Notes under the pieces: model-generated
Told to the model about the DNA's origin: nothing
The model's database searches: none
Seen by the model: the letters and a program-made list of their open reading frames with translations, nothing else
In this document: in pieces, positions 3,629 through 52,429 of the stretch
Layout of the letters: each line of letters begins with the position of its first letter
Position numbering within the stretch: position 1 is the first letter of the stretch
Program-made: the position numbers and the translations under genes
Virus record (IMG/VR): IMGVR_UViG_3300032296_002061
Location: 1 to 52,429 of that record
DNA from: a virus
DNA: 52,429 nucleotides
Reading direction: 5' to 3' (one strand)

Positions 3629-3817
3629 CTACTCACCTTTGCTGTAGTTATCTGCCGCCCAGCCTCGACCGTGGAAGTGGACGGGTGCTGCCTGTAGAAA
3701 GACCTTCTCGGTCACGCCGCCGCATAGAAGCTGCGGGCACTCTGGGCAGGGATCGGTCATCTTAGCCTCACCTTCAAAGATGTGGCCACACTTTTTGCAA
3801 CGGTAGTCGTACTTCAT
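3629..3817 (-). CDS. FmdB-type zinc-ribbon protein (62 aa)
   Basis: The start MKYDYRCKKCGHIFE is the classic N terminus of the FmdB/CxxC_CxxC_SSSS putative regulatory family; the second pair is CPEC, and the C terminus HGRGWAADNYSKGE matches the family's F-x-G-x-G-aromatic...DY end. Family members are small zinc ribbons, first named near formamidase genes, with no agreed function; phages carry many. The stop precedes the next start by one base and the start overlaps the upstream stop by ATGA. Confidence 0.88.
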   Translation of the reverse strand: MKYDYRCKKCGHIFEGEAKMTDPCPECPQLLCGGVTEKVFLQAAPVHFHGRGWAADNYSKGE

Positions 3818-5846: not shown

Positions 5847-6299
5847 CTAGACTCCCATCTGCGCCCGACAAGCGCGGCAATAGTGAATGGCTGCGTACTC
5901 AAACCTGGCCATGCTCCACGGCCACTTGCCGCACAGGCTATTGCCAGACTCAAACGCATGGTTAATCAGGTTTCCGACTGCACCCCAGCGGCATCCTTGT
6001 GCAACCGGCAGTACGTACACCGCTTGCTTCGGAGGCTCCAACGATGCGCTGGCAACTGGCACGGTAGGATGAGTGAGCGATACCACTGCTGGTAGTGCCG
6101 CACGCATAAGTTCCTCGCGAATACGGGCCTCTCGCATTGCAAGCAGCACGTTGTTTTCGGCAGTAGGGGTGGCCGGCCTCTCACGTGGTAGCTCCTTGCA
6201 GACTTCGCACCTGCTGCTTTTGCAGATTTTAGTACGCGCCATGCCATGCAGGCGAGCGAGCACTTGCTTGCTGAACTGACGGTCGCTGACGGCGGTCAT
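5847..6299 (-). CDS. Protein with two cysteine clusters (150 aa), unknown
   Basis: The start at 6299 overlaps the ERF gene's stop by ATGA. The N-terminal half has CEVCKELPRERP after a basic helix and may hold a zinc site; the C-terminal 50 residues contain a second cluster (LCGKWPW followed by YCRACRAQ, with nearby His). The pattern is that of a small zinc-binding or HNH-like protein, but the His-Asn-His residues of an active HNH nuclease are not convincingly present. Its coupling to the annealing protein suggests a part in the same DNA-processing set. Confidence 0.65.
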   Translation of the reverse strand: MTAVSDRQFSKQVLARLHGMARTKICKSSRCEVCKELPRERPATPTAENNVLLAMREARIREELMRAALPAVVSLTHPTVPVASASLEPPKQAVYVLPVAQGCRWGAVGNLINHAFESGNSLCGKWPWSMARFEYAAIHYCRACRAQMGV

Positions 6300-6964
6300 C
6301 ACTTCACCCCTGCCAGAAACCCACGCCACGTCTCGGCGCCGCCTGTAGTCATCCAGACAGACAAGCCACGGCGCTGCTCGTTGGTCATGCCAGCAGGCGC
6401 AGGCTTGCCCAAGCTGTCGCAGAACGCAGCCACCAAGTCATACGCCCAGCCCTGCTTATCAAGCCAAGCCATGAAGCCTGCCTCGTCCTTGGCCCAACTG
6501 GCGTGCTCGCCTGGTCGCTGCACACGCTGCTGGTACACGTTGTCCTGATCTCGGTCGGGGTCGTCGCCCGTCTCGATGCAGAACGTCTGCCGCAGCGCAT
6601 ACTTGTACGCGCAGGTCATCGCCTTGTTGCCGGCCTTGTCGCCAGAGTCGGCGCCCTCGCCCAGCGCCTCAACATCGATAAACGTTCCGCTATCTGCGTG
6701 CGTGAATCTAACGATTGCCTTCAGCAGGCAAACGTTCATGGCGCTACCCTTGGCAGTTGTAACTACGCTGCGCTCCACGTCGCGGTACTCGCGCACGGAG
6801 ATGCTTACCCCGTGCTCGACCATCGCGGGCCTCAGCTTGGCAATCAGGTCTGCTTCGCTGGCAAAGCTGTAGCGCAAGCCTTCGCTCTTGGTCTTTTGCA
6901 CGTAGCCATTGATGGCGCCGTAGATGGCGCCGATGGCTGCGTGGATGTCTTTGTGCGTGCTCAT
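6299..6964 (-). CDS. erf: ERF-family single-strand annealing protein (221 aa)
   Basis: Promotes annealing of complementary single strands in phage recombination (Red-beta/RecT functional class). Family hallmarks are visible: an N-terminal helix with YVQKTKSEGLRYSFASEADL, a beta region, then the glycine/aspartate block EGADSGDKAGNKAMTCAYKY and ALRQTFCIETGDDPD, which is diagnostic for the ERF superfamily. The start MSTHKDIH at 6964 overlaps the upstream stop by ATGA. A PD-(D/E)XK exonuclease lies one gene upstream, which fits a two-component recombination system. The C-terminal ~70 residues (Trp-rich) are the variable part. Confidence 0.93.
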   Translation of the reverse strand: MSTHKDIHAAIGAIYGAINGYVQKTKSEGLRYSFASEADLIAKLRPAMVEHGVSISVREYRDVERSVVTTAKGSAMNVCLLKAIVRFTHADSGTFIDVEALGEGADSGDKAGNKAMTCAYKYALRQTFCIETGDDPDRDQDNVYQQRVQRPGEHASWAKDEAGFMAWLDKQGWAYDLVAAFCDSLGKPAPAGMTNEQRRGLSVWMTTGGAETWRGFLAGVK

Positions 6965-7182
6965 CGCATCTCCCTCGCAATGCAGTACCAAACGAACTGC
7001 CCCTCTTGCTTGCGAAACAACTTGCCGTCACGATGCAGTTGCACGCACGCGCCGCCGATGTGATTCGACCTGTAGTAGGTCTTGCCGTTGTCCTTCAGGT
7101 GCTGCCAGACATCGATCGCCCGCATCTCGCGGTCGGGATAATCCAGAAACACCTGCAACACATTGTCCTTGTTGATAGCCAT
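6961..7182 (-). CDS. Small winged-helix-like protein (73 aa)
   Basis: ATG at 7182 in GCATCATGGC with a G-rich Shine-Dalgarno site upstream. The sequence MAINKDNVLQVFLDYPDREMRAIDVWQHL...HIGGACVQLHRDGKLFRKQEGQFVWY has the helix-helix-helix-wing look of a winged helix, so DNA binding is plausible. It lies between exonuclease and annealing protein and is translationally coupled to the latter. Confidence 0.7.
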   Translation of the reverse strand: MAINKDNVLQVFLDYPDREMRAIDVWQHLKDNGKTYYRSNHIGGACVQLHRDGKLFRKQEGQFVWYCIAREMR

Positions 7183-7191
7183 GATGCCCCC

Positions 7192-7947
7192 CTACGCCCA
7201 CCGTGGCGGCTTCAGTTCGTTGCTCTCAAACCGACTAGCCAGACCTGGCCAGTGACCGAACTCATCGCACGCCTGGTACAAGCGCACAGCCGAGTCCCAC
7301 TTGGCACGGCCCCGGTCGATGAACTCTTGGCCAGCCTTCAGCACCACAACCTGGTGCGGCGCCTGCTTGGTCACGAAGATGAACCACTTGTCCAGCTTGC
7401 GACCCTCGACCGCTTGCACCGCCTCTTGGTACGCAGCCGCGCTGATGTGGTACCCGTAGGTCCATGCCGCACGGGTCAAAGCGTCCTCGTCCTCGGCGCT
7501 GGTCGTCTTGATGTCCACGATGGACGCGCCCACGTAGTCCAGCTTCGACTTCAGCAACACGCCGTCACGCTCCCAGAGGTAGACCTTCTCGGCCTCACCA
7601 CCGGTCAGCATGTGGCCAGCCTCAGCCATCACTGCATCCCGAATCCGGTGCGCTCGATCCCAGTCATCTGCCGACACCGCTTCCTTGCCAGTATTGGCGT
7701 GCGCCCAACGAGTAAACGCTTCCTTGCCAGCAGTCGTGCGCCGGTCCACGTCAGGGGCCAGCGCGTAGCGCACATCCACCTCGTTGGGTTCAAGGCACAA
7801 GCAATGCACCAACTTGCCGAACTTCAGTTCAGCCGTGGGCTCGCGTGGATTGAAACGCTCGTATTCAAACGCAGCCGGCGAGCGTAGCAGAACCTTGGCC
7901 CCACTCGGGCTGAGTCTGCGGAGCGCAAAGTATTCTTCGTCCTTCAT
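7192..7947 (-). CDS. PD-(D/E)XK exonuclease (RecE/ExoVIII-like), 251 aa
   Basis: Would resect double-stranded ends to make the single strands used by the ERF protein. The start MKDEEYFALR at 7947 has GGAGGGG 3 nt upstream. SPSGAKVLLRSPAAFEYERF and KFGKLVHCLCLEP near the N terminus are typical of the PDDEXK-like phage nuclease family (DUF3799). The core is KSKLDYVGASIVDIKTT, which supplies the Asp and the D-x-K catalytic pair, followed by YGYHISAAAYQEAV with the Gln-Y motif. Together with the downstream ERF gene it forms the usual exonuclease/annealase pair. Confidence 0.9.
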   Translation of the reverse strand: MKDEEYFALRRLSPSGAKVLLRSPAAFEYERFNPREPTAELKFGKLVHCLCLEPNEVDVRYALAPDVDRRTTAGKEAFTRWAHANTGKEAVSADDWDRAHRIRDAVMAEAGHMLTGGEAEKVYLWERDGVLLKSKLDYVGASIVDIKTTSAEDEDALTRAAWTYGYHISAAAYQEAVQAVEGRKLDKWFIFVTKQAPHQVVVLKAGQEFIDRGRAKWDSAVRLYQACDEFGHWPGLASRFESNELKPPRWA

Positions 7948-7969
7948 GTTCCCCTCCGTAATGGTTTCG

Positions 7970-8167
7970 TTAAGCGGGTCGCGGCAACGTGCGCGGTCGA
8001 CCACCCGGCCCACGTGTCGGGCGGGACGGATCAATCTTGCGCATACGTCTACGCAACGACTTGAGCGCAGCTAGCGTTATCCCCAGACGCTCCGCTGCTT
8101 CAGGTAGTGTGGCTGATTGAGCGCACACGTGGTCAATCCACTCGATGTCTTTGCTTCCTCGTGCCAT
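7970..8167 (-). CDS. Small HTH protein (65 aa), paralogue of 10062-10262
   Basis: ATG at 8167 with GGTGAG upstream. The core LPEAAERLGITLAALKSLRRR is a helix-turn-helix of sigma-region-4/Hin type, followed by a basic Pro/Arg/Gly-rich tail. The HTH resembles that of the protein at 10062-10262 (shared AERLGI and R-x-R-M-R), so the two look like diverged copies. It precedes the exonuclease and may regulate this block; the target is unknown. Confidence 0.65.
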   Translation of the reverse strand: MARGSKDIEWIDHVCAQSATLPEAAERLGITLAALKSLRRRMRKIDPSRPTRGPGGRPRTLPRPA

Positions 8168-8175
8168 GCCTCACC

Positions 8176-8436
8176 TCACGGCGCAACCGTATCGCTAACA
8201 GGCGTAGTTGTCAAGCACTGCGGCCTGGGTTGCGTGCGTTTGATTCGCTTGCCGTTCCATATCTCCGAGTGTTTTTTGGTCGGGAACGGCGCAGTGGTAT
8301 CGCAACGCACACCGCACAAGTAGCAGATGAAGATGCCATAGATGTAGCCTTGCTCGCTCTTGTAGCTGCCGGCGTTACGCCAGCGATGCTTACCTGGCTG
8401 GATGTACGCTGTGCCTGAGCGTATTGTCTTAATCAT
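8176..8436 (-). CDS. Small protein with zinc-ribbon half-site (86 aa), unknown
   Basis: The ATG at 8436 overlaps the methyltransferase stop by ATGA. The product contains FICYLCGVRCDTT, a CxxC plus further Cys, and a basic segment (WNGKRIKRTQPRPQC). The layout resembles a small zinc-binding accessory protein. Its coupling to the methyltransferase is the only functional hint. Confidence 0.6.
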   Translation of the reverse strand: MIKTIRSGTAYIQPGKHRWRNAGSYKSEQGYIYGIFICYLCGVRCDTTAPFPTKKHSEIWNGKRIKRTQPRPQCLTTTPVSDTVAP

Positions 8437-9572
8437 TTCAACACCTCGTTGATTCGGCTTCCGATCCAGCGAACCACCGGCACGGCCCAGCTATTGCCGA
8501 GCGCCTTGTATCGCGGCCCGTCGGGACAGTCGTTGGCCGGTCGACCGCGCCACGGGATCGCGGTGTAGTCGTCTGGAAACCCTTGCAGGCGCTCGCACTC
8601 GCGAGGCGTGAGGCGGCGCACTTGCATCGCTGTAGCCACACCTTGCGTCGCGTGAGTGTCTACGGTGTACGCAGTGCCTTCGGTGTTCCAGCCGCGACCG
8701 TTTTGGCATTTTTGCACGTCACGCACGTCTTGGATTGCGACGCACGGCGCAGCGTCGCCCATGTCGGACTGTCGGGCGTCGAAAGCGTGCGGTGTTAATC
8801 GGCCGGTGTAGGCATCTTGGCCATCGCCGGGGTGCGAGTCGGCGCAGAGGCTGCCAACAATGCCGTCTGTAACTCCTCCGGCAACGCCTTGCTGCGCTTC
8901 TCGGCGCGACGGAGTATCCCTTTGCAGGCACGATCCGATAAGAAGAAGCGTTGCGGGATCGGCCCGCTCTCCAAAACGTCGGACAGTCTCCTGAGCGACG
9001 GCAAGCACGAAGACTCGGCGCCGCCGCTGTGCGACGCCGAAGAACTGTGCGTCCAATGTGACCCACGCCACTCTCCGTCGTCTGCCATCGACCAGACCTG
9101 CACGCGGCCACCGACCGACTTCAATGGCTTCATCCTCTCCTGCCAACTGGCCGAGGAAGCAACCGAAAGCGTTGTCTTTTGTTGTTGTGATTCCTGGTAC
9201 GTTTTCCCAGACGATGATGGCGGGGTCGTCTCCCCGAGCAGATCGAACAGTGTCAATTGCATCGGCAAGCTCGCAAAAGGTGAGTGAAAGGTTGCCGCGG
9301 GCGTCGTCCAGCGACCGCCGCAGGCCGGCCACGCTGAATGCTTGGCACGGTGTACCGCCGCACAGCAGATCGGGTGCCTCGACCTCGCCGGCCAATATGC
9401 GCCCAGGCAGCGTCACCATATTCCCAAGATTGGGCACGGTCGGGTAGTGATGCGCCAGCACCGCGCAAGGGAATGGCTCGATCTCGCTGAACCATGCAGC
9501 TTCCCAGCCGAGTGGCTGCCATGCCACCGACGCTGCTTCAATACCGCTGCATACTGAGCCAAACCTCACCAT
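8433..9572 (-). CDS. DNA (cytosine-5) methyltransferase, 379 aa
   Basis: Transfers a methyl group from SAM to C5 of cytosine in a specific DNA site. The conserved motifs appear in order: motif I FGSVCSGIEAASVAW at residues 4-18, motif IV GGTPCQAFS with catalytic Cys76, motif VI ENVPG, motif VIII QRRRRVF, motif IX RRLTPRECERLQGFPDDY and motif X ALGNSWAVPVVRW. The target-recognition region lies between VIII and IX. Length is normal. No restriction endonuclease is adjacent, so it is probably an orphan enzyme protecting phage DNA from host restriction; the recognition site cannot be read from sequence. Confidence 0.96.
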   Translation of the reverse strand: MVRFGSVCSGIEAASVAWQPLGWEAAWFSEIEPFPCAVLAHHYPTVPNLGNMVTLPGRILAGEVEAPDLLCGGTPCQAFSVAGLRRSLDDARGNLSLTFCELADAIDTVRSARGDDPAIIVWENVPGITTTKDNAFGCFLGQLAGEDEAIEVGRWPRAGLVDGRRRRVAWVTLDAQFFGVAQRRRRVFVLAVAQETVRRFGERADPATLLLIGSCLQRDTPSRREAQQGVAGGVTDGIVGSLCADSHPGDGQDAYTGRLTPHAFDARQSDMGDAAPCVAIQDVRDVQKCQNGRGWNTEGTAYTVDTHATQGVATAMQVRRLTPRECERLQGFPDDYTAIPWRGRPANDCPDGPRYKALGNSWAVPVVRWIGSRINEVLK

Positions 9573-9766
9573 GGCAGCACCTCGTAGCCTTTACCCTCGC
9601 ACTGCCGGCAAGGCAGGTACCCACTGCCGTCGCACCTGTCACAGGCAGCCATGAGTTGCAGGAGAGTCACACCATCGCTGTTACAGTTCTGGCACGTCAC
9701 CTGTCCGCCGCCGTTGCACCCTTGGCACGGCAGTTCGTCGTCCTCTTCCACATATTGCCAGCGCAT
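9566..9766 (-). CDS. DnaJ-type zinc-finger protein (66 aa)
   Basis: The start at 9766 (MRWQYVEE) shares a base with the upstream stop (TGATG). The protein has four CxxC(x)G units: CQGCNGG, CQNCNSDG, CDRCDGSG and CRQCEGKG, the same spacing as the cysteine-rich domain of DnaJ. There is no J domain. Isolated DnaJ-like zinc fingers occur in phages; they may bind unfolded protein or act in redox or zinc chemistry, but the role here is unknown. It overlaps the methyltransferase start by 7 bp. Confidence 0.75.
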   Translation of the reverse strand: MRWQYVEEDDELPCQGCNGGGQVTCQNCNSDGVTLLQLMAACDRCDGSGYLPCRQCEGKGYEVLPW

Positions 9767-10059
9767 CACGCTACTCCTACATGCAGCACAAGCTCGTCCA
9801 TGTTTGGAACGACTTGGATAGTCACCCACGTGGCGCGGGCGCGGCCTTCGTCATCGATTCGCATACGCCGCTCAAGGTGGGCAGCGGCCAACGCACGGCA
9901 CAGTTCCGGCGATGAGTCGAGTCCTTCGATGTCGGCGCGCTCTTCAAGTGCATCGGCCAGCAACTCGGCCAAGTCGGCGTCGCTTGCGATGACCTCGTTG
10001 ACCTGCTGCTCTACGATGCTCTCGTCAATCTGATTGATAAAACGGTCCATGTACTGCAT
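9766..10059 (-). CDS. Small acidic helical protein (97 aa), unknown
   Basis: ATG at 10059 with GGAGG 8 nt upstream. The product is acidic and helical (VNEVIASDADLAELLADALEERADIEGL), ending with a short beta-like segment (ATWVTIQVVPNMDELVLHVG). No known domain. Translation is coupled to the zinc-finger gene. Confidence 0.65.
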   Translation of the reverse strand: MQYMDRFINQIDESIVEQQVNEVIASDADLAELLADALEERADIEGLDSSPELCRALAAAHLERRMRIDDEGRARATWVTIQVVPNMDELVLHVGVA

Positions 10060-13987: not shown

Positions 13988-14004
13988 GCAGGCACACAGC
14001 CCGC
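13988..14004 (-). promoter_or_regulatory. Hairpin-Shine-Dalgarno leader for the gene starting at 13975
   Basis: In the RNA: GCGGGC-tgtgt-GCCTGC (6 pairs, one G-U), then GTGGAGTAGCCT and ATG. A second hairpin of the same size lies upstream at 14021-14037 (CGTGCC-ACGGT-GGCACG in the RNA), and a third (CCGGC-CGCA-GCCGG on the + strand) follows the stop at 14098. Confidence 0.55.
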
Positions 14005-14097
14005 TTTCGCTACCGTTCGCCGTGCCACCGTGGCACGCCCACCCTGCACCACGCGGAGGCGGTAGCTTGCAGGGCACCGGCCGCAGCCGGGAAAGAG

Positions 14098-14247
14098 TCA
14101 GCACCCGCTCACAGCCAAGCACAACAGGCACACCGCCAGGACGCCGACCACCACGGCCAGCAGGTTCAGCGCGTCCGCACGGTCAGCCGCCGCACGCTCC
14201 ATATCCAGCCGCCTGCACGTCAGGCACCGCTTACAATCGTGCTTCAT
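14098..14247 (-). CDS. Small membrane protein with N-terminal Cys motif (49 aa)
   Basis: The ATG at 14247 overlaps the upstream stop by ATGA and has GAGGTGA 4 nt upstream. The N terminus MKHDCKRCLTCRR carries a C-x2-C-x2-C motif with a His, followed by a helix and a single transmembrane segment (LLAVVVGVLAVCLLCLAV). The Cys-rich head would lie in the cytoplasm. Function unknown. Confidence 0.55.
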   Translation of the reverse strand: MKHDCKRCLTCRRLDMERAAADRADALNLLAVVVGVLAVCLLCLAVSGC

Positions 14248-14447
14248 TGCTTCACCTCATCGTCGAGTTGGGTTCGCCAGTGAACCAGCGCGGAGGCTAG
14301 CTCGTACAGACACGGCACGCCGGCAGGGTATGCGCGGGTCAGTGCGTCCGATGTAGCATCGTCGCACGATAGCCACGCATCCGACAGTTCGCAGGCAGTG
14401 TCGGCCAGTTGGCGGACTAGTGCCCGCATCCGTTCGCGCTCGTTCAT
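14244..14447 (-). CDS. Small helical protein (67 aa), unknown
   Basis: The ATG at 14447 follows GAGGAGGTGTGAG and a hairpin that lies in the end of the previous gene. Product starts MNERERMRALVRQLADTACELS and is helical with two Cys; no family recognised. Confidence 0.6.
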   Translation of the reverse strand: MNERERMRALVRQLADTACELSDAWLSCDDATSDALTRAYPAGVPCLYELASALVHWRTQLDDEVKQ

Positions 14448-14448
14448 C

Positions 14449-14652
14449 TCACACCTCCTCGCAGGCCAGCGCCTGCTCATCAAGCCACGTCTTGCGCTCA
14501 CGCTCCGCCACGGAAAGCCAACCCTCGGCCCACGCCGTGGCATGGTCAAAGAGTGTGCCGTAAGTTGCGTCAGGCCACTCGCCCCGCAGGGTGTCCAACC
14601 GCTCCTCGCGCAACGTCGCCAGCGTGGGCAACTCTTCCGCAGGGTCGCACAC
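14449..14652 (-). CDS. Acidic helical protein (67 aa), start uncertain
   Basis: The first usable start in this frame is a GTG at 14652, giving MCDPAEELPTLATLREERLD and an acidic helical protein ending ACEEV. Protein-like sequence (YHDGRWSAHH) continues upstream in frame to a TGA, without ATG or GTG. A hairpin and a GGAAGGTGAG site lie 40-60 bp upstream, at the position used by sister genes, but no start codon sits at the expected distance. The natural start may be lost by mutation or a small indel. It is the first leftward gene. Confidence 0.5.
   Translation of the reverse strand: MCDPAEELPTLATLREERLDTLRGEWPDATYGTLFDHATAWAEGWLSVAERERKTWLDEQALACEEV
14461..14476 (-). promoter_or_regulatory. 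Hairpin-Shine-Dalgarno leader for the gene starting at 14447
   Basis: In the RNA: GCAGGC-gctg-GCCTGC (6 bp, 4-nt loop), then GAGGAGGTGTGAG and ATG. It lies inside the 3' end of the 14449-14652 frame. Confidence 0.55.
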
Positions 14653-14699
14653 GTGGTGCGCGCTCCACCGGCCATCGTGGTAGCTGTCTCACCTTCCCC

Positions 14700-14716
14700 G
14701 CAGGCATCCTGCCCGC
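14700..14716 (-). promoter_or_regulatory. Hairpin leader without a start codon at the expected place
   Basis: In the RNA: GCGGGC-aggat-GCCTGC (6 pairs, one G-U), then GGGGAAGGTGAGA followed by CAG instead of a start codon. The nearest in-frame start of the 14449-14652 gene is a GTG about 50 nt further. Confidence 0.5.
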
Positions 14717-14721
14717 TTGGC

Positions 14722-14817
14722 TTGACGGCGCCGGATTCGAACCGGCAAGCGCGAACCGGAGTCCGCGCCGCACCTTGCAACCGCCAAGAATGTCACCATC
14801 GCGCCCCTGCGCCGTCT
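14722..14817 (-). other. tRNA-like segment with perfect T-arm
   Basis: On the leftward strand a five-pair stem GCCGG/CCGGC encloses TTCGAAT, giving GGTTCGAATCC, the tRNA B-box consensus. It is followed by GCCGTCA, which pairs at six positions with AGACGGC 90 nt upstream as an acceptor stem would. The length fits a class II tRNA with a long variable arm, and GCGCG...CGCGC before the T-arm could be that arm. A convincing anticodon loop is lacking: the best one lacks U33. It may be a decayed tRNA or a copy of a tRNA 3' half, as found in attachment sites. Confidence 0.35.
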
Positions 14818-15041
14818 CGATTCGGTCATCGTCGCTACCGCTAGTCCGATGCATGACTTCGAACGCAACTTCGAAGTGTGCAGCCTGTAGCGTCTCGCAC
14901 GGTATGCCGGCAGACGGGATAGAGCGCCGAGTTGTCAGAGAGCGCCGGGGCAGTGCGCAACCGCCATCCGTGAAACCCACTATGCAGCGCCCCGCCGGGG
15001 GTGTCAACTGCCGCGCCAAGTATGCCCCGAGCCTGCCCCGT

Positions 15042-15160
15042 AAGTGTGCGGAAACACTAGGACGGGCATGTGATCACAGGTAGGGGGCAAGGCAAAGGGT
15101 GGTCTGGAAGTGTGCGGAATCAGTAGGGAAAAAAACGCAAAAACGCTAAGTGTGCGAAAT
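15042..15160. repeat. AAGTGTGCG direct repeats
   Basis: Three copies of AAGTGTGCGRAAWCA start at 15042, 15108 and 15148; a shorter copy (AAGTGTGCA) starts at 14874. They share the same orientation and lie next to an A-rich run (15129-15144). Binding sites for a replication or transcription factor are the likeliest meaning. Confidence 0.6.
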
Positions 15161-15283
15161 CACGTAGCAGGGGCAGGAAAGGGGAGCGATGCGGGCGGGG
15201 CGGAGTGACATGGAGACGGGCGCAGGTGGCAGGGTGGTGGCAGCCAAGTAAACCTAGTGCGGGGGTAGGGATATAGGGAAAGT

Positions 15284-15297
15284 TGACCGATCGGTCA
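15284..15297. promoter_or_regulatory. 14-bp perfect palindrome, possible operator
   Basis: TGACCGATCGGTCA is a perfect inverted repeat of the kind bound by small dimeric repressors. It lies 25 bp before the array of spaced palindromes. No encoded repressor can be assigned to it. Confidence 0.5.
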
Positions 15298-15321
15298 GGT
15301 CACACCTCTGCCCTAGGCGTC

Positions 15322-15374
15322 GCTCAGAAGGTGAACGCAGGTTCAGCGGCTGAACTTTGGTTCAGTTTCTGAAG
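15322..15374. promoter_or_regulatory. Three palindromic sites at 19-bp spacing
   Basis: Sites of form GTTCAG-N3-CTGAAC start at 15322 (GCTCAG AAG GTGAAC), 15341 (GTTCAG CGG CTGAAC, perfect) and 15360 (GTTCAG TTT CTGAAG). The start-to-start distance is exactly 19 bp twice. Half-sites recur at 15383 and 15397. The geometry is that of cooperative dimer binding along one DNA segment. Confidence 0.65.
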
Positions 15375-15492
15375 GTCGCCGGCTGAAGCCAATCCAGTTC
15401 AGCTAGCTTCAAGTCTTACCGCCACCGTCCCGCGCCGGTAAGCCGGCTTCAATGGACGGCAAGCGAGACGCGAAGCTAGCGGCAGGCTTGCG

Positions 15493-15525
15493 TTGTGCTT
15501 GGCTTGTGCTTGGCTTGTGCTCACG
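15493..15525 (+). repeat. 11-bp tandem repeat, almost three units
   Basis: TTGTGCTTGGC occurs at 15493 and 15504 and a partial third unit (TTGTGCTCACG) follows at 15515. Meaning unknown. Confidence 0.7.
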
Positions 15526-15713
15526 ATGGCGCGTGCGCGAATAAGCGGAACGTGCAGGCCCGCGCTTGTACGTACGCTGTGCCCAGGCGCGCACACCCCC
15601 ACGTTTGTGTGCAGCGCACCTGCACGTCGCGTTCAATTTGCCCATCACCCCCTCTGAGCAAATCGCCTTTCACCATACCCACCCCTTCTGCCACCGCCGG
15701 AGTCCCAAGTTCT

Positions 15714-16083
15714 GGGTAGTCGTCCATTTTGCCCTACGACTACCCAGCCTGAGCACAAAACAGTCTTCTGGGTAGTCTTCCATGGCCGCTAGGTAGTCTT
15801 TGGGTAGTCGTCCAATTTTCTCGTAACTGCATGTATGTATTACAGAAAGTACCAGTTTTACGTATTTGGGTAGTCGTATATCGTATACAGAGGTATGTGA
15901 ATAGAAGAAACATGTTGTATTTATTACTTAGTGGTTTTTTGCACTAAACTATTCCTATAACGCAAATAGGACTACCTGGACTACCTGCGGCTGATTGTTG
16001 TTTGTTGTTGGCAGGTTAGTGGGTAGTCTTTCTATTTATGCACGACTACCCAAGCACGAGATAGGACTACCCGAAGACTACCT
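15714..16083. repeat. GGGTAGTC repeat array with AT-rich core, candidate replication origin
   Basis: About twelve copies of GGGTAGTC (or AGGTAGTC) lie in 370 bp. Forward copies start at 15714, 15770, 15791, 15802, 15868 and 16021. Reverse copies (GACTACCC/T) start at 15738, 15970, 15979, 16044, 16065 and 16076. The stretch 15820-15960 between them is clearly AT-rich compared with the rest of the genome. Iterons flanking an AT-rich segment, just upstream of a VapE-type replication gene, fit a replication origin. A set of sites for a transcription factor is the alternative. No credible gene lies here. Confidence 0.6.
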
Positions 16084-16084
16084 G

Positions 16085-16114
16085 TTGACAGGAGTTGGCG
16101 CATTGCGCTAGGGT
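16085..16114 (+). promoter_or_regulatory. Possible promoter for the replication genes
   Basis: TTGACA at 16085-16090 is a perfect -35 box; 18 nt later TAGGGT is a poor -10 box. It lies directly after the last GGGTAGTC copy and about 170 bp before the first rightward gene. Confidence 0.35.
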
Positions 16115-16283
16115 TTGCCTTGGACGAAATGCGCTATGCAACGGCGCATCGAAATGGAGTATCCGATGACTTTGCGTTTATCGCCCACGTCACCAGTATG
16201 GCTTGTCGTAGCGTTTTCTCCATTTCCGCTACGAACGAGGTTGCACCTATTGGCGGCGTGGGCGATGACCGGGAGGTCTGGCT

Positions 16284-17555
16284 ATGAACAGAATTAGGAT
16301 TGTTCATCCGGTGATTACGTTTCCGGTGATGGGTACTCGCGGGCCGTCTAAGCAGCACGCGGAGAATACGGAAGCGTTGTTGGATGCGTATGGGATTAGC
16401 CTTCGCTACAACCTGATGCGGCATGGGTTGGAGATGGAGATACCTGGGTTTGAGACCGAGAGTGAGCGTTCGGAGAACGCGACGGTGCAGTGTTTCAAGA
16501 GCTTGGTTCAGCGGCATGGGTTGAGTGCGGAGAACTCGCTTGGGCATTTGAACTTCTTGGCGCCTGCTTACCATCCGGTGCGGGATTGGATTTTGTCGCG
16601 GCCTTGGGATGGCGTTGACCGGATGCCGGATTTCATGGCGACGATTGGTCTTGCTGAGAGCGAGAAGGCGCACTTGGCTGGAATGTTGATTCGGAAATGG
16701 TTGGTTGGTGCGGTGCGGGCGGTGATGCCAGATGAGACTTCTGGTCGGCCGTTTACGCCTCAGGGTGTGCTGACTTTTCAGGGGCCGCAGGGCATTGGTA
16801 AGACGGAGTGGTTCAAGTCGCTGGCGCCTCAGGACAAGGATTGGATTTGCACCGGGCGCGTGCTTGACCCGCACAATCGGGATTCGATTCAGCAGGCGAC
16901 TGGTTACTGGATTACGGAGCTTGGCGAGTTGGACGCGACGTTCAAGCGGTCGGACGTTGTGGCCATGAAGGCGTTTGTGACCCAGCCGTTTGATGTCTAC
17001 CGCACGGCTTACGCCATGCGCGAGGAGCGCATTCCCAGGCGCACGATGCTTAGCGCAAGCGTGAATCCGCAGGAGTTTTTGGCCGACGAGACGGGTAATC
17101 GGCGCTGGTGGGTTGTGGCGGTCGATACGCTGGACTGGGACCATAAGGTCGATATGCAGCAGCTATGGGCGCAGGTCGCGGTGATTGCGCAGAGCGGTGA
17201 AAGCTGGTGGTTGAACCGCGAAGAGATTGAGTTGCTAAATGCGTCCAACGAGGACCATGAGATTGTCGACCCGCTGATTGCTGAGCTTGAGGAAACTTGG
17301 CGCATTCCGGTGCTAAGCGATACCCAGAAGCAGCCGCGTGTGAAGCTGGCCGAAATCTGGAAGGCGCTTCCCAGTTATGGTCATGGGGCTATGGATTGTA
17401 AGCAGTCACGCCTTTTGGCTAACAAGCTTCGGCGCATGGGCGCGGAGAACGGCAAGACCAAGGGCTTGACTACATTTTGCGTCGAGAGGGTTCCGCAAAC
17501 CAATGTGCCTACCGGGTTTGCTAGCGCATTCAAGCCGGTGCGTTACGACGACTAG
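16284..17555 (+). CDS. VapE-like P-loop ATPase, replication initiator/helicase type (423 aa)
   Basis: A virulence-associated E (VapE) family protein; relatives in phages and satellite islands act as replicative helicase or primase-helicase. The start at 16284 has GGAGGT 6 nt upstream. PWDGVDRM at 108-113 and the Walker A GPQGIGKT at 167-174 are family marks; YWITELGELD is the Walker B region, and RRTMLSASVNPQEFLAD plus GNRRWWVV are the sensor/arginine-finger region. No primase (Toprim/AEP) domain is seen N-terminally. As the first gene after the repeat array and with no phage polymerase present, it probably opens the origin and loads host replication enzymes. Confidence 0.9.
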   Translation: MNRIRIVHPVITFPVMGTRGPSKQHAENTEALLDAYGISLRYNLMRHGLEMEIPGFETESERSENATVQCFKSLVQRHGLSAENSLGHLNFLAPAYHPVRDWILSRPWDGVDRMPDFMATIGLAESEKAHLAGMLIRKWLVGAVRAVMPDETSGRPFTPQGVLTFQGPQGIGKTEWFKSLAPQDKDWICTGRVLDPHNRDSIQQATGYWITELGELDATFKRSDVVAMKAFVTQPFDVYRTAYAMREERIPRRTMLSASVNPQEFLADETGNRRWWVVAVDTLDWDHKVDMQQLWAQVAVIAQSGESWWLNREEIELLNASNEDHEIVDPLIAELEETWRIPVLSDTQKQPRVKLAEIWKALPSYGHGAMDCKQSRLLANKLRRMGAENGKTKGLTTFCVERVPQTNVPTGFASAFKPVRYDD

Positions 17556-17563
17556 GAGGGGAA

Positions 17564-17782
17564 ATGGAAACGAAGTTTGATGTTGCTGATGAGTATTCGA
17601 TTGGCATCAAGTGTATGCACTGTGGGCACAACAAGTTGCACGCACCAATTTTGGTTACTGGCAATATTGGCCTTTATACCTTCATCGAGGTTGGTTGCCT
17701 GAAGTGTCACAAACAAACCTTTGTGAACTTCCACATCGTGGATAACGAAGTTTCCGTTTCCGTAACGGATTCTGAGCCATGA
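17564..17782 (+). CDS. Small zinc-ribbon protein (72 aa)
   Basis: ATG at 17564 with AGGAGGGG 3 nt upstream. Two CxxC pairs, CMHCGH and CLKCHK, about 35 residues apart, form a zinc ribbon; the rest is beta-like. Related in layout to the next gene, with which it overlaps by ATGA. It lies between VapE and SSB genes, which suggests a replication accessory. Confidence 0.75.
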   Translation: METKFDVADEYSIGIKCMHCGHNKLHAPILVTGNIGLYTFIEVGCLKCHKQTFVNFHIVDNEVSVSVTDSEP

Positions 17783-17997
17783 TTAACCTTTACAAAGAAG
17801 ACGGCTATACGCGCCTTGCCTGTCCGGCCTGCCACAGCATCAAGCTGCGGGCGATGGCGACGGTGATGCCGTATGACGTAAAGCAGGTAAGCGTGCATAG
17901 CAAGTGCTTGGATTGCCATGCGACGTTGTTGTTCCAGTTTATCCTGGGTTCCAAGCGCATCACGATTAACGTACTTGAGGGGAAAGACAATGGCTAA
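17779..17997 (+). CDS. Small zinc-ribbon protein (72 aa), sister of the previous gene
   Basis: The start overlaps the previous stop by ATGA. CPACHS and CLDCHA pairs form a zinc ribbon with the same spacing and total length as the gene before, so the two are probably a duplicated pair. The 3' end overlaps the SSB start by 8 bp. Confidence 0.75.
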   Translation: MINLYKEDGYTRLACPACHSIKLRAMATVMPYDVKQVSVHSKCLDCHATLLFQFILGSKRITINVLEGKDNG

Positions 17998-18313
17998 CTT
18001 CAACCAGTTTACGATGCTTGGCCGGCTGGGCCGTGATGCGGAAGCTCGGCAGGCGGCTACGCCAGTGACCAAGTTGAACGTGGCGACTTCGGTCGGCTAT
18101 GGCGACAAGCAGAAGACCTTGTGGATGAACGTGACGGTCTTCGGGAAGTCGGCCGAGTTTGCGGCCAAGCTGAAGAAGGGCGCGGAAGTTCTGGTGTCCG
18201 GCTACCTTGAGCCTAACGAGTGGGCGAAAGATGGCGTGACGCACAAAGACATTGTGATGGTCGCCAACACCGTCCAGGCTGTGGGCGCCAAGCAGGATGC
18301 AGTGCCGTTCTGA
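17990..18313 (+). CDS. ssb: Single-stranded DNA-binding protein (107 aa)
   Basis: Coats single-stranded DNA during replication. The start MANFNQFTMLGRLGRDAEAR at 17990 is typical of SSB OB folds, followed by KLNVATSVGYGDKQKTLWMN and VTVFGKSAEFAAKLKKGAEV, the standard core. The C-terminal linker is very short but the end DAVPF keeps the Pro-Phe tip used to contact partner proteins. GAGGGGAAA precedes the ATG. The stop overlaps the helicase start (TGATG). Confidence 0.95.
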   Translation: MANFNQFTMLGRLGRDAEARQAATPVTKLNVATSVGYGDKQKTLWMNVTVFGKSAEFAAKLKKGAEVLVSGYLEPNEWAKDGVTHKDIVMVANTVQAVGAKQDAVPF

Positions 18314-19707
18314 TGAACCTGCGTCCGTACCAGAAAGACACGATTGACCGCTGCCGATTGGCTTTCTTTGTAGGCCACAAGCGGGTGGTGCTCCAAGCCG
18401 GCACGGGGTCGGGTAAGAGCATCATGGCGGCGGCGATCGTGCAGGCTGCCGTTGCCCGTGGTAAGCGCGTGTTGTTTACGACGCACCGTCGAGAGATTCA
18501 TGCCCAGACGATGGGCAAGCTTCAATTGGCGGGTGTCGCAGCAGCCGAGCTTACTGCGGGCAAGGCAGTTCCTGACGCTCAGGTAATTGCTGCGTCACAA
18601 CAGACACTTGCACGCCGCATCATACCTGCGGTTGATTTTGTGATCATCGACGAGGCGCACTCGGGCATCGAGCAGACCCGGCGCCTGATGGATGCGCTAC
18701 CCTCAGCCCACTTCCTGTTGCTGACCGCGACTCCATGCCGCACCGATGGCCAGCCACTACCTGCTGACCACATTGTGTGCGGCCCGTCGATTGTGGAGTT
18801 GCAGCAGCAGGGCCACCTCGTTCCTACTCGGTTGTACGGCGTTGAGTCGCCTGACTTGGCCGGCATCCCGATGCGCCATGGCGACTATGCGCAGGGTGCG
18901 CTGGAGACTGCCTATCGCGGCACGCGGCTGGTAGGCCAGGTAGCGGAGAACTGGCAGAAGCTTTGCGCTGGACGGCGCACGCTCTTGTTTGCTTCGGGCG
19001 TGGACCACAGCAAGGAATGCCGCGATGCGTTATTGCGTGCGGGTGTGCGTGCGGCACATGTGGATGGTGGCACACCGGAGGCAGAGCGGGCGCAGACTTG
19101 GGAGCGGCTGAGGCGCCATGAGCTTGATGTGGTGTGCAGCGTGGGCGTGGCGATCGAGGGCTTGGACATTCCTGAGGTGTCGGCTGTGTACTTGGCCCGC
19201 GCTACTGCAAGCGTGACGGTGTACCTGCAAGCGATCGGTCGGGGGATGCGACCTGGTGGTTCTCCTGACTTGGTGATTGTCGATGCTGGCGGCAACGTGT
19301 GGCGTCATGGTTTGCCTGAAGAGCATCGCGAGTGGTCGTTGGCTGAGCGTGTAGCTAAGGAAAAAGCTTTGACCTTACAGCACTGCCCCCAGTGTCTTGC
19401 AGTGTTTGCGCCTACTTCTGCCTGCCCGCGTTGTGGCCATGTTGCTACTGCCGCTGAGCGCAAGCCTCCGCAGCAGGTGGTGGGTGAGTTGAAGGAAATC
19501 ACCCAAGCCGAACTGGATCGGCGCGAGCGTGAGCGTAGCAAGATGGTGCCACCTCGTCCCTGCCCACCTTGGGCTGCGGCATTTGCGCACGTGTGGCATA
19601 GGCTTGAGCGTAAGCGGCATGAGTTTGGTTACGCGCTTGGCGATGGCAATCGGTTTAGCGGATACAGCGCGGCGATGATGTTGCGGCACATGAAGAGGGC
19701 TGCGTGA
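18313..19707 (+). CDS. SF2 DNA helicase, RadD-like (464 aa)
   Basis: A superfamily 2 helicase. Walker A GTGSGKS at 30-36, DEAH at 113-116, LTATP at about 137-141 and the C-terminal QAIGRGMR motif VI are all present. The C-terminal part has a zinc ribbon, CPQC and CPRCGH, as in RadD/YejH-type repair helicases. The start at 18313 (MNLRPYQKDTID) overlaps the SSB stop; RadD partners with SSB in bacteria, which suits this order. Likely roles are fork repair or replication restart. Confidence 0.92.
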   Translation: MNLRPYQKDTIDRCRLAFFVGHKRVVLQAGTGSGKSIMAAAIVQAAVARGKRVLFTTHRREIHAQTMGKLQLAGVAAAELTAGKAVPDAQVIAASQQTLARRIIPAVDFVIIDEAHSGIEQTRRLMDALPSAHFLLLTATPCRTDGQPLPADHIVCGPSIVELQQQGHLVPTRLYGVESPDLAGIPMRHGDYAQGALETAYRGTRLVGQVAENWQKLCAGRRTLLFASGVDHSKECRDALLRAGVRAAHVDGGTPEAERAQTWERLRRHELDVVCSVGVAIEGLDIPEVSAVYLARATASVTVYLQAIGRGMRPGGSPDLVIVDAGGNVWRHGLPEEHREWSLAERVAKEKALTLQHCPQCLAVFAPTSACPRCGHVATAAERKPPQQVVGELKEITQAELDRRERERSKMVPPRPCPPWAAAFAHVWHRLERKRHEFGYALGDGNRFSGYSAAMMLRHMKRAA

Positions 19708-20039
19708 ACCGTTCGGAAGATGTTGAGATTCGCGAGTTCATGCTGGCGGTGGGCGCTGTGCCTCGGGTGCATGTGCAGCGGATGCACGTGCTTAAAGCGC
19801 GACTCGCCTCTGGTGTCTATCTGATGAGTGCGCCTCCAGGCACACCGGATGTGTACTGCTGCGCGGGCGGGCATCACGTGTGGCTGGAGTTCAAGCGGCC
19901 TGGTGGCGGCAGGGCTGAAGAAAGTCAGAAGGTGTGGCACAATGCGCTGCGTGCGGCCGGCGGGGAAGTGTGGGTTGTGCGAGATGGCAAGAAGGCGGCA
20001 GCAGACATCTTGAAGCTATTGGAGGGGAACAATGGCTGA
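19704..20039 (+). CDS. VRR-NUC domain nuclease (111 aa)
   Basis: A PD-(D/E)XK nuclease of the VRR-NUC type, which in other organisms acts on branched DNA. GTPDVYC (Asp49), VWLEFKRPGGG (Glu62, Lys64) and ESQKVWHNALRAAGGEVWVV follow the family pattern. The GTG start overlaps the helicase stop by GTGA. Stand-alone phage members are about this size. It could resolve replication or recombination junctions together with the helicase. Confidence 0.92.
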   Translation: MNRSEDVEIREFMLAVGAVPRVHVQRMHVLKARLASGVYLMSAPPGTPDVYCCAGGHHVWLEFKRPGGGRAEESQKVWHNALRAAGGEVWVVRDGKKAAADILKLLEGNNG

Positions 20040-22191: not shown

Positions 22192-22860
22192 CTACGCCAT
22201 CGCATACCGGCGCGCACTGGTAATCGTGAACAAACCACCGGTCTGAGTGCGATAGCCTGATTCGTTCAGGTCAGCGGCAATGTCCGACCAGCTCAAGTCG
22301 CGCTCACGCAGCAACTTGGCTCGGTTAATCGCCTCACAACTCACGCTGCACCGCTCCAGCACCCCATCTTCGCGCACACGCTTGCCCAGCGGCACTGCGC
22401 CAGCACGCTTGCCAGCAGCTTTGAGCACCGACAACGCCGCCTTGGTGCGCTCGGCAATGACTTCGCGCTCCCATTCGGACACCGAAGCCAGAATATTGAG
22501 CACCAACCGGCCAGAAGCACTGCGCGTATCGACTTGATCACCCACAGAGAACAGCGTGTAGGGGCTGGAAACGAAGTATTCGTGCAAAATCTTGCCCAAG
22601 TCCTGCACGCTGCGAGTCAAACGGTCGAGCTTAGCCACCAGAATACCGTCGACACCATGACCAAGCATGGAAAGACACCGCAACAACGCAGGCCGCTCCA
22701 TGGTTTTTGCAGAAATCCCAGCGTCAACCTCGATTGCTACGATATCCAAATCGTAAAGCTTGGCGTATACGCGCACTTTGTCCTCTTGCGCAGCCAAACC
22801 CAGACCAGAATCAGCCTGCTCGTTGGTCGAAACCCGAAGATATGCAACAACGCGAGTCAT
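22192..22860 (-). CDS. Small serine recombinase (resolvase/invertase type), 222 aa
   Basis: A site-specific recombinase using a serine nucleophile. YLRVSTNEQADSGLGLAAQ gives catalytic Ser11; DAGISAKTMERPALLRCL and ILVAKLDRLTRSVQDLG supply the catalytic arginines; ASVSEWEREVIAERT is the start of the long helix E. The C-terminal part has an HTH-like stretch (SWSDIAADLNESGYRTQTGG). At 222 aa it is a small recombinase, not a large phage integrase. The start overlaps the HTH gene by ATGA. Possible jobs are DNA inversion, dimer resolution or integration; no matching crossover sites were identified. Confidence 0.93.
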   Translation of the reverse strand: MTRVVAYLRVSTNEQADSGLGLAAQEDKVRVYAKLYDLDIVAIEVDAGISAKTMERPALLRCLSMLGHGVDGILVAKLDRLTRSVQDLGKILHEYFVSSPYTLFSVGDQVDTRSASGRLVLNILASVSEWEREVIAERTKAALSVLKAAGKRAGAVPLGKRVREDGVLERCSVSCEAINRAKLLRERDLSWSDIAADLNESGYRTQTGGLFTITSARRYAMA

Positions 22861-25518: not shown

Positions 25519-25675
25519 CAGGGCTGCTGGCCCCAAGAAGGCTGGTCCTTCTGACCGTGTGCGTGTGGCGCTGGAGAAAGCGGCGTCTGCAATCGAGGCC
25601 GAGCGCCGTCGCAAGCGCACGGTTGTAGATATTGGTGTTGAGCCTGACTCGGAAGAGGGCGACGGTGAACGATAA
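25073..25675 (+). CDS. Hypothetical protein before the large terminase (200 aa)
   Basis: The ATG at 25073 is preceded by CAGGAG at good spacing. The N-terminal 80 residues are Ser/Thr/Gly/Pro-rich and probably disordered; the C-terminal half is helical (FALTRSHSRLSVSDLNHIGM, RVRVALEKAASAIEAERRRK) with an acidic end. Its 3' end overlaps the terminase start by 11 bp. Position and size fit a small terminase subunit, but no HTH is evident, so this stays open. Confidence 0.65.
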   Translation: MSKLGNINQPPDSSLRDISSRFVEPTFHQDSSGTETSTSGPQEPGQPSTNPGLIEGSSAGSFSSTLKPSTTAMDPMLLRRMQSEDGALELPALSGTDLASFALTRSHSRLSVSDLNHIGMSLMKDAVAQEKPDHRAAAAVFSVMAQVNSRAAGPKKAGPSDRVRVALEKAASAIEAERRRKRTVVDIGVEPDSEEGDGER

Positions 25676-27254
25676 CGAGATTGATCTGTTGCTTGACCAG
25701 TGGGCCGTATCGCCTCGGGCGTTTGCGGAATGCTTTCGCATCAAGAACAAAGATCGAACCGAAGTCGACTTCAAGGTGTCGGTACCTCAGCAACTTGCGC
25801 TCAACGCGCTGTCGGCCAAGCAGAAGCTGGTGTTTCTGAAAGGTCGCCAGATGTGGATTACCACCATCTGCTTGGTCTGGCAGCTACGCACATGCTTGTT
25901 CAAGCCTGGTGCTATCTGCGCAGTCGGTATGCAGTCGGACTTCAACGCTCGGCAGATGTCGCTGACTGCATACAACCTGTACAAGGGCAATGAGATTCTG
26001 GTCGACTTGATGGGCATCGAGCGCCAGAACGACCACCAGATTCTGTTCAACAACGGCTCGCAGATGTTGTTCGTTACCGCGAACTCGCCTGTGCTACGTT
26101 CGATGCCGCTGAACTTCGCACACCTGTCCGAAGTCCGCGACTACGACGACCTTGGCGAAACGCTGGCCTCGATCAAAGTAGCGCCTGAAGGCACGCTGCT
26201 GCTTGAGTCGACGGCTGGTGGCGAGGACGACTTTTACCACATTTGGAGCGACCCAGAGAGCGCATTCACCAAAGTGTTCTTCTGCTGGCGCGACCACCTT
26301 GAGTATCGCTCTAGCACCGGCATCGACGGCCCGATGCTTGAGGTCGAGAAGGAATACGTCAAGCAGCACAACCTGTCTCGGCAGGAGACTAATTGGTGGA
26401 TTAAGGAGCGCCGAGCGTTGCCGTTGCACAAGCGGCCGTTCATGGTTCAGGAGCACCCGACGACGCCGGAAGAAGCGTTCTTGCTGAGCGGCGACAAGTA
26501 TCTGCGCCGGCAAGTACCGATGCCTCCCGGTGACCCGCGTGATTCGGATGAGGCCGGTATCGTGGTGTACCATCCGTACAACCCAACTCACCAGTACGTG
26601 GTTGGCATCGACCCGGCGCCAGGTTCTAACGAGAAGGGCGACCCGACCGGCTTGGTCATCATCGACATTACCGATCGATGCGTTGTGCTGACTCAAGAGA
26701 TTCGCCAGCCCACCCGTGACTTTGAAGGCCCATGCTTGGAGCTTATCAAGGCATATGGCTCACCGCTGACGGTTATCGAGACGGCAGCCGAAGGTTTGGG
26801 CTTGTGTGACTTCCTGCGTGGTGCGGGCGTATCGATGTACCACATGACGGCGTTTGGCGGCTTGTCTCCGACGATGCTACCTCGGCACGGTTGGCGTACT
26901 GACGTGCAGACACGCGGCATCCTTTATGGCGAGATTTACGAGGGCGCGAGCGGCAACAGTCGCTGGAAGATTGGCTGCCACCGGTTGGTGAAGCAACTTA
27001 ACGCTTTGTGCTACGACAAGCGCGGCAAGCCTGCTGCGCCCAAGAACGGACACGACGACTTGGTTGTGGCGTTTGGCTTGGCGCTACTTGGTGTGGTGCA
27101 AGCGTTGCCTGCTAAAGAAACGCCTAATGTGCAGCAAGAGCCCAAGAATGCTCTTGATGCTTACATGCGCGACTTGGAGCGCGCTATGGCTAGCGGGCAG
27201 AACGATCACTTTGATTTTTCTGTGGATTCACAACAATCTGATTTCTTTGATTAA
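25665..27254 (+). CDS. terL: Terminase large subunit (529 aa)
   Basis: ATP-driven motor and nuclease that packages and cuts phage DNA. The GTG at 25665 starts MNDNEIDLLL. The P-loop region reads FLKGRQMWITT at about 57-67, a variant with Trp where a small residue is usual. FAHLSEVRDYDD provides the Walker B region with the catalytic Glu. The C-terminal nuclease shows VVGIDPAPGSNEKGDPTGL (first Asp), VIETAAEG (middle acidic) and NGHDDLVVAFGLAL (last Asp pair). Length and motif order are normal. It starts the virion block and overlaps its upstream neighbour by 11 bp. Confidence 0.95.
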   Translation: MNDNEIDLLLDQWAVSPRAFAECFRIKNKDRTEVDFKVSVPQQLALNALSAKQKLVFLKGRQMWITTICLVWQLRTCLFKPGAICAVGMQSDFNARQMSLTAYNLYKGNEILVDLMGIERQNDHQILFNNGSQMLFVTANSPVLRSMPLNFAHLSEVRDYDDLGETLASIKVAPEGTLLLESTAGGEDDFYHIWSDPESAFTKVFFCWRDHLEYRSSTGIDGPMLEVEKEYVKQHNLSRQETNWWIKERRALPLHKRPFMVQEHPTTPEEAFLLSGDKYLRRQVPMPPGDPRDSDEAGIVVYHPYNPTHQYVVGIDPAPGSNEKGDPTGLVIIDITDRCVVLTQEIRQPTRDFEGPCLELIKAYGSPLTVIETAAEGLGLCDFLRGAGVSMYHMTAFGGLSPTMLPRHGWRTDVQTRGILYGEIYEGASGNSRWKIGCHRLVKQLNALCYDKRGKPAAPKNGHDDLVVAFGLALLGVVQALPAKETPNVQQEPKNALDAYMRDLERAMASGQNDHFDFSVDSQQSDFFD

Positions 27255-52042: not shown

Positions 52043-52429
52043 GCAACAGACAGGGTGTGGCGTATGACGCAGATAACCTCGTCACGCTGACGCCAGGTAG
52101 TCTGACCTTTAACGGCACGACCTACGACATCGCTGCTTCAGGTAGCGCGGCTGCGGCATTGCAGGCTGCTTTGATTGCGCAAGCTACGGCCAACGCGGCG
52201 CTGCCCAAGGCCGGCGGCACGATGACCGGCGCCATCAACATGAGCAACCAGCAAATCAATATGCTGGGCGCTCCTCTTGTATCGACCGATGCTGCGACCA
52301 AGGGTTACGTTGATACGTCCGTGGTCGGCTTGCTTGACCTTCAGGGCACGATTGATTGCAGCACCAACCCGAACTACCCGGCAGCCAACAAGGGCGACGT
52401 ATGGGTTGTGTCGGTGGCCGGTCTTATTG
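52039..52429 (+). CDS. Tail fibre/spike protein, N-terminal part (continues at position 124)
   Basis: GTG start at 52039 overlapping the previous stop (GTGA). Sequence begins MSNRQGVAYDADNLVTLTPG and includes LPKAGGTMTGAINMSNQQIN and GAPLVSTDAATKGYVDTSV, the standard fibre repeat blocks. It runs to the window end in the 123-bp repeat and continues in the same frame at 124-1403. Confidence 0.85.
   Translation, partial: MSNRQGVAYDADNLVTLTPGSLTFNGTTYDIAASGSAAAALQAALIAQATANAALPKAGGTMTGAINMSNQQINMLGAPLVSTDAATKGYVDTSVVGLLDLQGTIDCSTNPNYPAANKGDVWVVSVAGLI
52307..52429. repeat. Terminal direct repeat, right copy
   Basis: Identical to 1-123. The fibre frame is preserved across the join (offset 52306 keeps the codon phase), which supports a circle of 52,306 bp. 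Confidence 0.95.

Follow-up and report, generated by a model that had tools for sequence, protein, structure and literature searches.

The virus record IMGVR_UViG_3300032296_002061 of IMG/VR (52,429 nucleotides, analysed over its whole length and referred to here as the window) contains a cluster of short repeats at positions 15714-16083, directly flanking an AT-rich core and lying upstream of a gene for a VapE-like protein. We conclude that this cluster is very probably an iteron-type phage replication origin opened by the phage's own VapE/PriRep-type initiator helicase. A previous reading of this DNA, made from the sequence alone, had proposed an origin served by its own VapE-like initiator together with host enzymes. 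This remains the best-supported explanation given the recurrence of arrays beside related helicases, the structural match of the protein to PriRep1 and the lack of a polymerase family among the 25 Pfam families found in 59 open reading frames (ORFs) of the window, with VapE as the putative binding protein. The array, its core, the predicted fold of the initiator and the repeated pairing of arrays with helicase genes are established in this analysis.

The repeat array and the adjoining helicase

The 8-mer GGGTAGTC occurs eight times in the 52,429-base record and every copy is located between 15714 and 16072, whereas whole-window dinucleotide shuffles contain 0.75 copies on average and 4 at most. 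Together with four copies of AGGTAGTC they form 12 sites of the type (G/A)GGTAGTC on both strands, in agreement with the "about twelve" repeats of the sequence-only reading. The 7-mer GGTAGTC, counted alone, is found 14 times in the window. Twelve of these fall in 15715-16082, six per strand, which bears out the two orientations noted earlier, and the two outlying ones are single copies at 3802 and 52096. Rather than the frequent copies throughout the genome that the earlier reading had named as contrary to its proposal, the window thus holds a single cluster. The best both-strand 8-mer cluster within 450 bp likewise has 8 copies in the window and 3-4 copies in 60 order-2 Markov versions of it.

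The sites are arranged in two sets, six on either side of the AT maximum. In the left set GGGTAGTC is present at 15714-15721 (+), 15738-15745 (-), 15770-15777 (+), 15802-15809 (+) and 15868-15875 (+, the inner left copy), and AGGTAGTC at 15791-15798 (+). The right set comprises AGGTAGTC at 15970-15977 (-, the inner right copy), 15979-15986 (-) and 16076-16083 (-), and GGGTAGTC at 16021-16028 (+), 16044-16051 (-) and 16065-16072 (-). The copies at 15770, 15791 and 15802 (+) form a direct trio with spacings of 21 and 11 bp, close to two and one helical turns, and the same spacing is repeated at 16044, 16065 and 16076 (-). Measured over 140 bp, the AT content of the window peaks at 15814-15953 (69.3% AT, the next non-overlapping peak reaching 60.7% at 27210), as the earlier reading had stated of the central 140 bp. 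The overlapping core between the inner iterons, 15877-15969, is 71% AT as compared with 42% across the window and is the proposed melting site.

The array ends at 16083, leaving a gap of 201 bp before the VapE-like gene that contains no long gene, only a 60-aa ORF. The array had been described as standing directly before this gene; its upstream location is correct but it does not adjoin the gene. Cumulative GC skew, suggested at the same time as a check, has its minimum at 15039, about 0.7 kb left of the array, and its maximum at 52066. The minimum is indeed near the array, yet it coincides with the gene-strand switch and tracks gene orientation, and was therefore set aside as weak evidence.

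The gene at 16284-17555 (+) encodes a 423-aa VapE-domain AAA+ helicase, the proposed initiator, which matches the VapE-like domain PF05272 with an E-value of 1.2e-48. Its helicase core spans approximately residues 95-328 and is followed by a predicted C-terminal winged helix at about residues 330-400. Devoid of a primase domain, the protein is the counterpart of the helicase-bearing C-terminal half seen in the primase-helicases (about 760 aa) found in other phages. Its only clear sequence match in the PDB is 7pds, "PriRep1 with dsDNA" (E 1.6e-24). An AlphaFold2 model built from 52 sequences (pLDDT 91.9) was used for a VIA structure search, in which 7pds again ranked first (Z 25.6, root-mean-square deviation (rmsd) 4.7 over 375 residues, model residues 8-407), followed by the C-terminal region of NrS-1 (Z 14.5) and the SaPI5 primase-helicase (Z 12.5). 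The proposed initiator belongs to the PriRep/VapE type of AAA+ helicases. Proteins of the VapE type are frequently annotated as hypothetical, as primase and even as integrase.

Residues 330-399 of the model follow the order helix-strand-helix-helix-strand-strand, which is that of a winged helix. Modelled alone, the C-terminal part has a pLDDT of 85, and Foldseek returned no match to it at E 0.001. VIA gave weak matches to the C-terminus of the African swine fever PrimPol and to RFX5 (both Z 6.8), as well as to the P4 origin-binding domain 1ka8 (Z 5.2, rmsd 3.6 over 76 residues, below the tool's clear level), all three of which we take to be winged helices.

Arrays beside VapE genes of other phages and of plasmids

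A sample of 147 VapE relatives, made up of 80 IMG/VR and 67 GTDB loci, was surveyed for similar arrays. A cluster of one 8-mer, represented on both strands and at least five times within 450 bp, was detected in 42 of the 147 loci and in one of 147 Markov versions. In position-matched 1-kb intervals, the score of at least five copies was reached by 29 of 138 directly 3' of the gene, 0 of 125 directly 5' of it and 4 of 714 controls, two of these four control positives (L154 and L166) being more distant arrays of the same VapE genes. A slightly larger set searched for 7-mers with at least six copies yielded 32/145 just 3', 3/131 just 5' and 9/712 in the controls.

The 7-mer survey produced 53 arrays, the window included, of which 43 were kept. 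Nine of the ten dropped arrays (L124, L140, L173, L175, L177, L180, L227, L278 and L280) were picked by hand as coding-type or mostly one-strand repeats or as lying beside a truncated gene, the cluster of L124 being a one-word tandem repeat inside annotated genes; the tenth, L274, had an AT excess below the cut-off of 0.10. Forty of the kept arrays are downstream of VapE, 32 of them within 500 bp, and three, from SFCi1, L247 and the window itself, are upstream. Each of the 43 has two or more iterons on either side of the AT maximum. This maximum lies within the top 2% of its locus in 36 of the 43 arrays as against 176 of 860 random 300-bp stretches, a comparison that is partly circular because the arrays had been pre-filtered on AT excess. 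GGG, GGT or AGTG is present on one strand in 35 of the 43 array words versus 26% of random words from the same loci, the motif having been picked after the list of arrays was viewed.

Among the named phage loci (L121-L132), arrays were found in 4 of 12 (L122, L125, L130 and L132), each with its own word; L133, the upstream end of the record of L129, was outside the array scan. Upstream arrays are built of GGGTGCAC in SFCi1 and TGCCCCCT in PY6, downstream arrays of GGTGACAA in Alux-21 and GTTGCACT in Alexa, and the words of L134 and L215 are GGTGACGGC and GTGTAGG, respectively. In L145, a regular array of eight ACGCATAT copies (9376-9810), split three to five between the strands, is located about 5 kb from the VapE gene, and a further 13-copy array is found near the other end of the locus.

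Plasmids carry the same association. Matches to the VapE-like protein were obtained in 117 of 72,556 plasmid records, and in all six plasmids fetched, a non-random choice (L400-L405), an array is present 3' of VapE. The arrays consist of AGGTGTCA (11 copies each in L400 and L403), TGGTGGGA (9 copies, L401), TGGGACA (10 copies, L402), TGGGGGTA (6 copies, L404) and TGAACCA (9 copies, L405). The array of L402 is about 1.3 kb from VapE and those of the other five plasmids are nearer; in L404, a one-strand 8-copy repeat elsewhere outscores the array. The annotations show no further replication protein in the plasmid parts read, which for L405 amount to 7.9 of 33.9 kb, and in the plasmids read whole VapE and its array are the only recognisable replicon. 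L400 (CP054330.1) and L403 (NZ_CP100673.1) are 9-kb plasmids from E. coli and Salmonella that have the VapE gene and the array in common. They are best counted as one case because their arrays are identical, and they probably represent a small-plasmid replicon type without a name in the plasmid typing shown. As in the window, the arrays of SFCi1, PY6, Alux-21, Alexa, L134, L215 and the six plasmids are each built from a single 7- or 8-mer that is found on both strands around an AT-rich stretch; they differ from it in that each has its own repeat word and most are downstream.

Several observations weigh against an origin read by the VapE-like protein. The array of the window is upstream of the gene whereas 40 of the 43 kept arrays are downstream, and in 109 of 138 relatives no exact word reaches five copies within 1 kb on the 3' side of the gene. 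No array was found, though sought, in L214, whose VapE shares the joint highest identity (49%). Nor did we find a close relative that has this iteron next to its VapE gene: a blastn search with 15084-19710 had no hits among 50,697 phage records, a single-protein scan of IMG/VR revealed no near relatives, and a VapE gene is present in 2 of the 239 listed loci fetched by pairs of GGGTAGTC. Recurrence of GGGTAGTC in these loci proves nothing since they were selected by the word. Finally, covariation between iteron and helicase, examined on 39 arrays after removal of near-duplicates, is weak. After correction for helicase identity, the partial correlation of iteron similarity with C-terminal identity is r 0.13 (p 0.010); the value for helicase identity, corrected for C-terminal identity, is similar at r 0.10 (p 0.038). 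The result agrees with recognition through the C-terminal domain without pointing to that domain alone.

Two of the 239 loci, L023 included, encode a D5-type helicase like that of L023. This IMG/VR contig has copies of GGGTAGTCGT on both sides of an AT-rich stretch (2640-2930) and a RepB-primase/DUF5906 helicase gene at 6085-8349, pairing the same repeat word with another type of initiator.

Proposed mode of replication and competing explanations

The VapE-like protein would act as a self-loading initiator helicase. Its C-terminal winged helix is predicted to bind the (G/A)GGTAGTC sites in both sets, probably so that one hexamer is loaded per side, and the helicase would then melt the core at 15877-15969 and proceed by divergent unwinding. 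Strand copying would involve the phage single-strand DNA-binding protein (SSB) and superfamily 2 (SF2) helicase along with host primase and polymerase III. The two host enzymes are proposed because neither a phage DNA polymerase nor a phage primase was recognised. The Pfam scan covered 59 of the 65 ORFs selected (six, among them the 2075-aa ORF at 45117, did not enter it), and its 25 families include neither a DNA polymerase, as the earlier reading had supposed, nor a primase or a lambda O-type initiator. Searches of the virus record for Toprim_3 and Zn_Ribbon_Prim were negative (0/1 each). Priming by a divergent phage primase or by the host primase is possible.

The genes leftward of the array encode two DNA methylases, an exonuclease VIII-like protein and an Erf-like annealing protein, and those on its other side are rightward. 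The array therefore lies at a divergence of transcription. The twelve sites could instead be operators, on which a phage repressor or early regulator controls the left operon (recombination, methylases) and the right operon (VapE, SSB, helicase). The divergent intergenic location would fit, and the upstream arrays of L132, L125 and L247 likewise adjoin leftward genes or ORFs. We nevertheless consider this unlikely, since the arrays of the relatives are mostly 3' of VapE (40/43) and hence away from its promoter, and since twelve sites around an AT-rich core are many for an operator. Moreover, the sole promoter-like site in 14000-16400, at 15007-14979, is outside the array, no repressor-type family is among the 25 found by Pfam, and operators would leave the plasmid arrays unexplained. 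As a speculation, binding of the initiator in this divergent early region might also tune early transcription.

The array might also be an iteron origin recognised by another phage or host initiator, VapE being merely the replicative helicase loaded there. The weak covariation of iterons and C-termini would fit, as would the presence in the VapE operon of other proteins to which no function was assigned and, among the matches listed, of same-word clusters in contigs without a detected VapE. Against this, PMC7581432 indicates that SaPI and SCCmec helicases read their repeats via their own C-terminal domain, and the protein of the window combines a predicted C-terminal winged helix with a nearly full-length alignment to PriRep1; a separate initiator thus appears quite improbable. 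Least credible of all is a role in packaging, recombination or partition, or no function at all: iteron-like clusters do serve plasmid partition in other systems, but a long distance separates the array from the terminase gene (25632-27254), neither a ParA nor a ParB family was detected in the 59 ORFs, and a chance repeat is unlikely because arrays recur beside VapE helicases in unrelated phages and plasmids.

Known replicons and neighbouring genes

Initiation by a self-loading helicase on iterons is of a known kind, described for phage satellites, namely the Staphylococcus aureus pathogenicity islands (SaPIs) and the phage-inducible chromosomal islands (PICIs) of E. coli. In PMC6092414 and PMC7581432, Pri-Rep + ori replicons are reported for SaPI1, SaPIbov1 and EcCICFT073, and SaPI Rep is described as reading iterons directly downstream of its own gene via its C-terminal domain (PMC7581432). 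The helicase of the window resembles these in matching PriRep1 (7pds) over model residues 8-407. In such replicons rep and ori drive autonomous replication, for which the six of six fetched plasmids lend the VapE-array pair indirect support. Their ori is directly downstream of rep (PMC7581432), whereas the array of the window is 201 bp upstream of the helicase gene; furthermore, they are satellites packaged in helper-phage capsids, whereas the window carries its own terminase and portal genes. Membership of the PICI replicons is not claimed because their position and satellite context are not shared. Cch2 of the staphylococcal cassette SCCmec, which requires AAGTG repeats, is similarly a helicase that loads itself and uses its C-terminal domain to bind direct repeats beside its own gene, but PMC7581432 reports three repeats only, and Cch2 is of the SaPI5/D5 type. 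For the protein of the window, the SaPI5 helicase structure gives a lower Z (12.5) than PriRep1 does (25.6).

A further parallel is the alpha protein of phage P4, an initiator helicase with a winged-helix origin-binding domain that acts on short iterons at ori and crr. The C-terminal model of the window protein aligns weakly with that domain (1ka8). The P4 protein is a primase-helicase fusion that uses two separate repeat regions, whereas the window has a helicase only and a single array.

In the open-licence PMC literature, no paper containing both "VapE" and "iteron" was found, and among the papers listed none was recognised, by its title or the opening of its abstract, as reporting such arrays for VapE phages; older work on dairy-phage origins may overlap. 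The present analysis adds the occurrence of the system in a phage that has head genes of its own, the upstream site in a divergent early region, and the wide distribution of word-diverse arrays beside VapE. We tentatively suggest that VapE/PriRep helicases and adjacent iterons may constitute a replicon of general occurrence in tailed phages and small plasmids, beyond the satellites, in which the diversifying word would be a specificity code, and that in this phage the array may have moved to the divergent early region, coupling replication to early transcription. Such a code, if true, would group coinfecting phages, satellites and plasmids by whether they are compatible or in competition and predict which of them compete for one another's initiator, and the surveyed arrays would supply dozens of natural helicase-iteron pairs in which to follow changes of winged-helix specificity. 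More immediately, a probable replication start is located in a phage without a recognised polymerase, and a simple sequence rule is provided for finding origins in the many phages and small plasmids whose sole replication gene is "VapE".

The replication operon that includes VapE continues with the SSB gene (17918-18313, +), the SF2 helicase gene (18220-19707, +), homologues of which share loci with VapE relatives (e.g., L134), and a gene for a small nuclease- or Holliday-junction-resolvase-like protein (19704-20039, +). The genes for the terminase large subunit and a P22-like portal lie farther rightward of the array.

The intergenic region left of the iterons has a second repeat family, AAGTGTGCG(G/A)AA(A/T)CA, with direct copies at 15042, 15108 and 15148 (15042-15165, +), which AAGTGTGC at 14874 joins. 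These repeats might serve the leftward operon as operators or as promoter elements. A degenerate tRNA-like stretch at 14724-14800 (-) contains a perfect T-arm string (14730-14743). ARAGORN detected no tRNA in the window, and the stretch scores 21.7 bits (E 0.28) against the Rfam tRNA-Sec model, whose gathering score is 47; it is possibly a tRNA relic or the remnant of an attachment site. Lastly, a serine recombinase gene of the resolvase/invertase type lies within the block of rightward genes but is itself leftward (22192-22860, -), and a homologue is located directly 3' of the VapE gene in L214.
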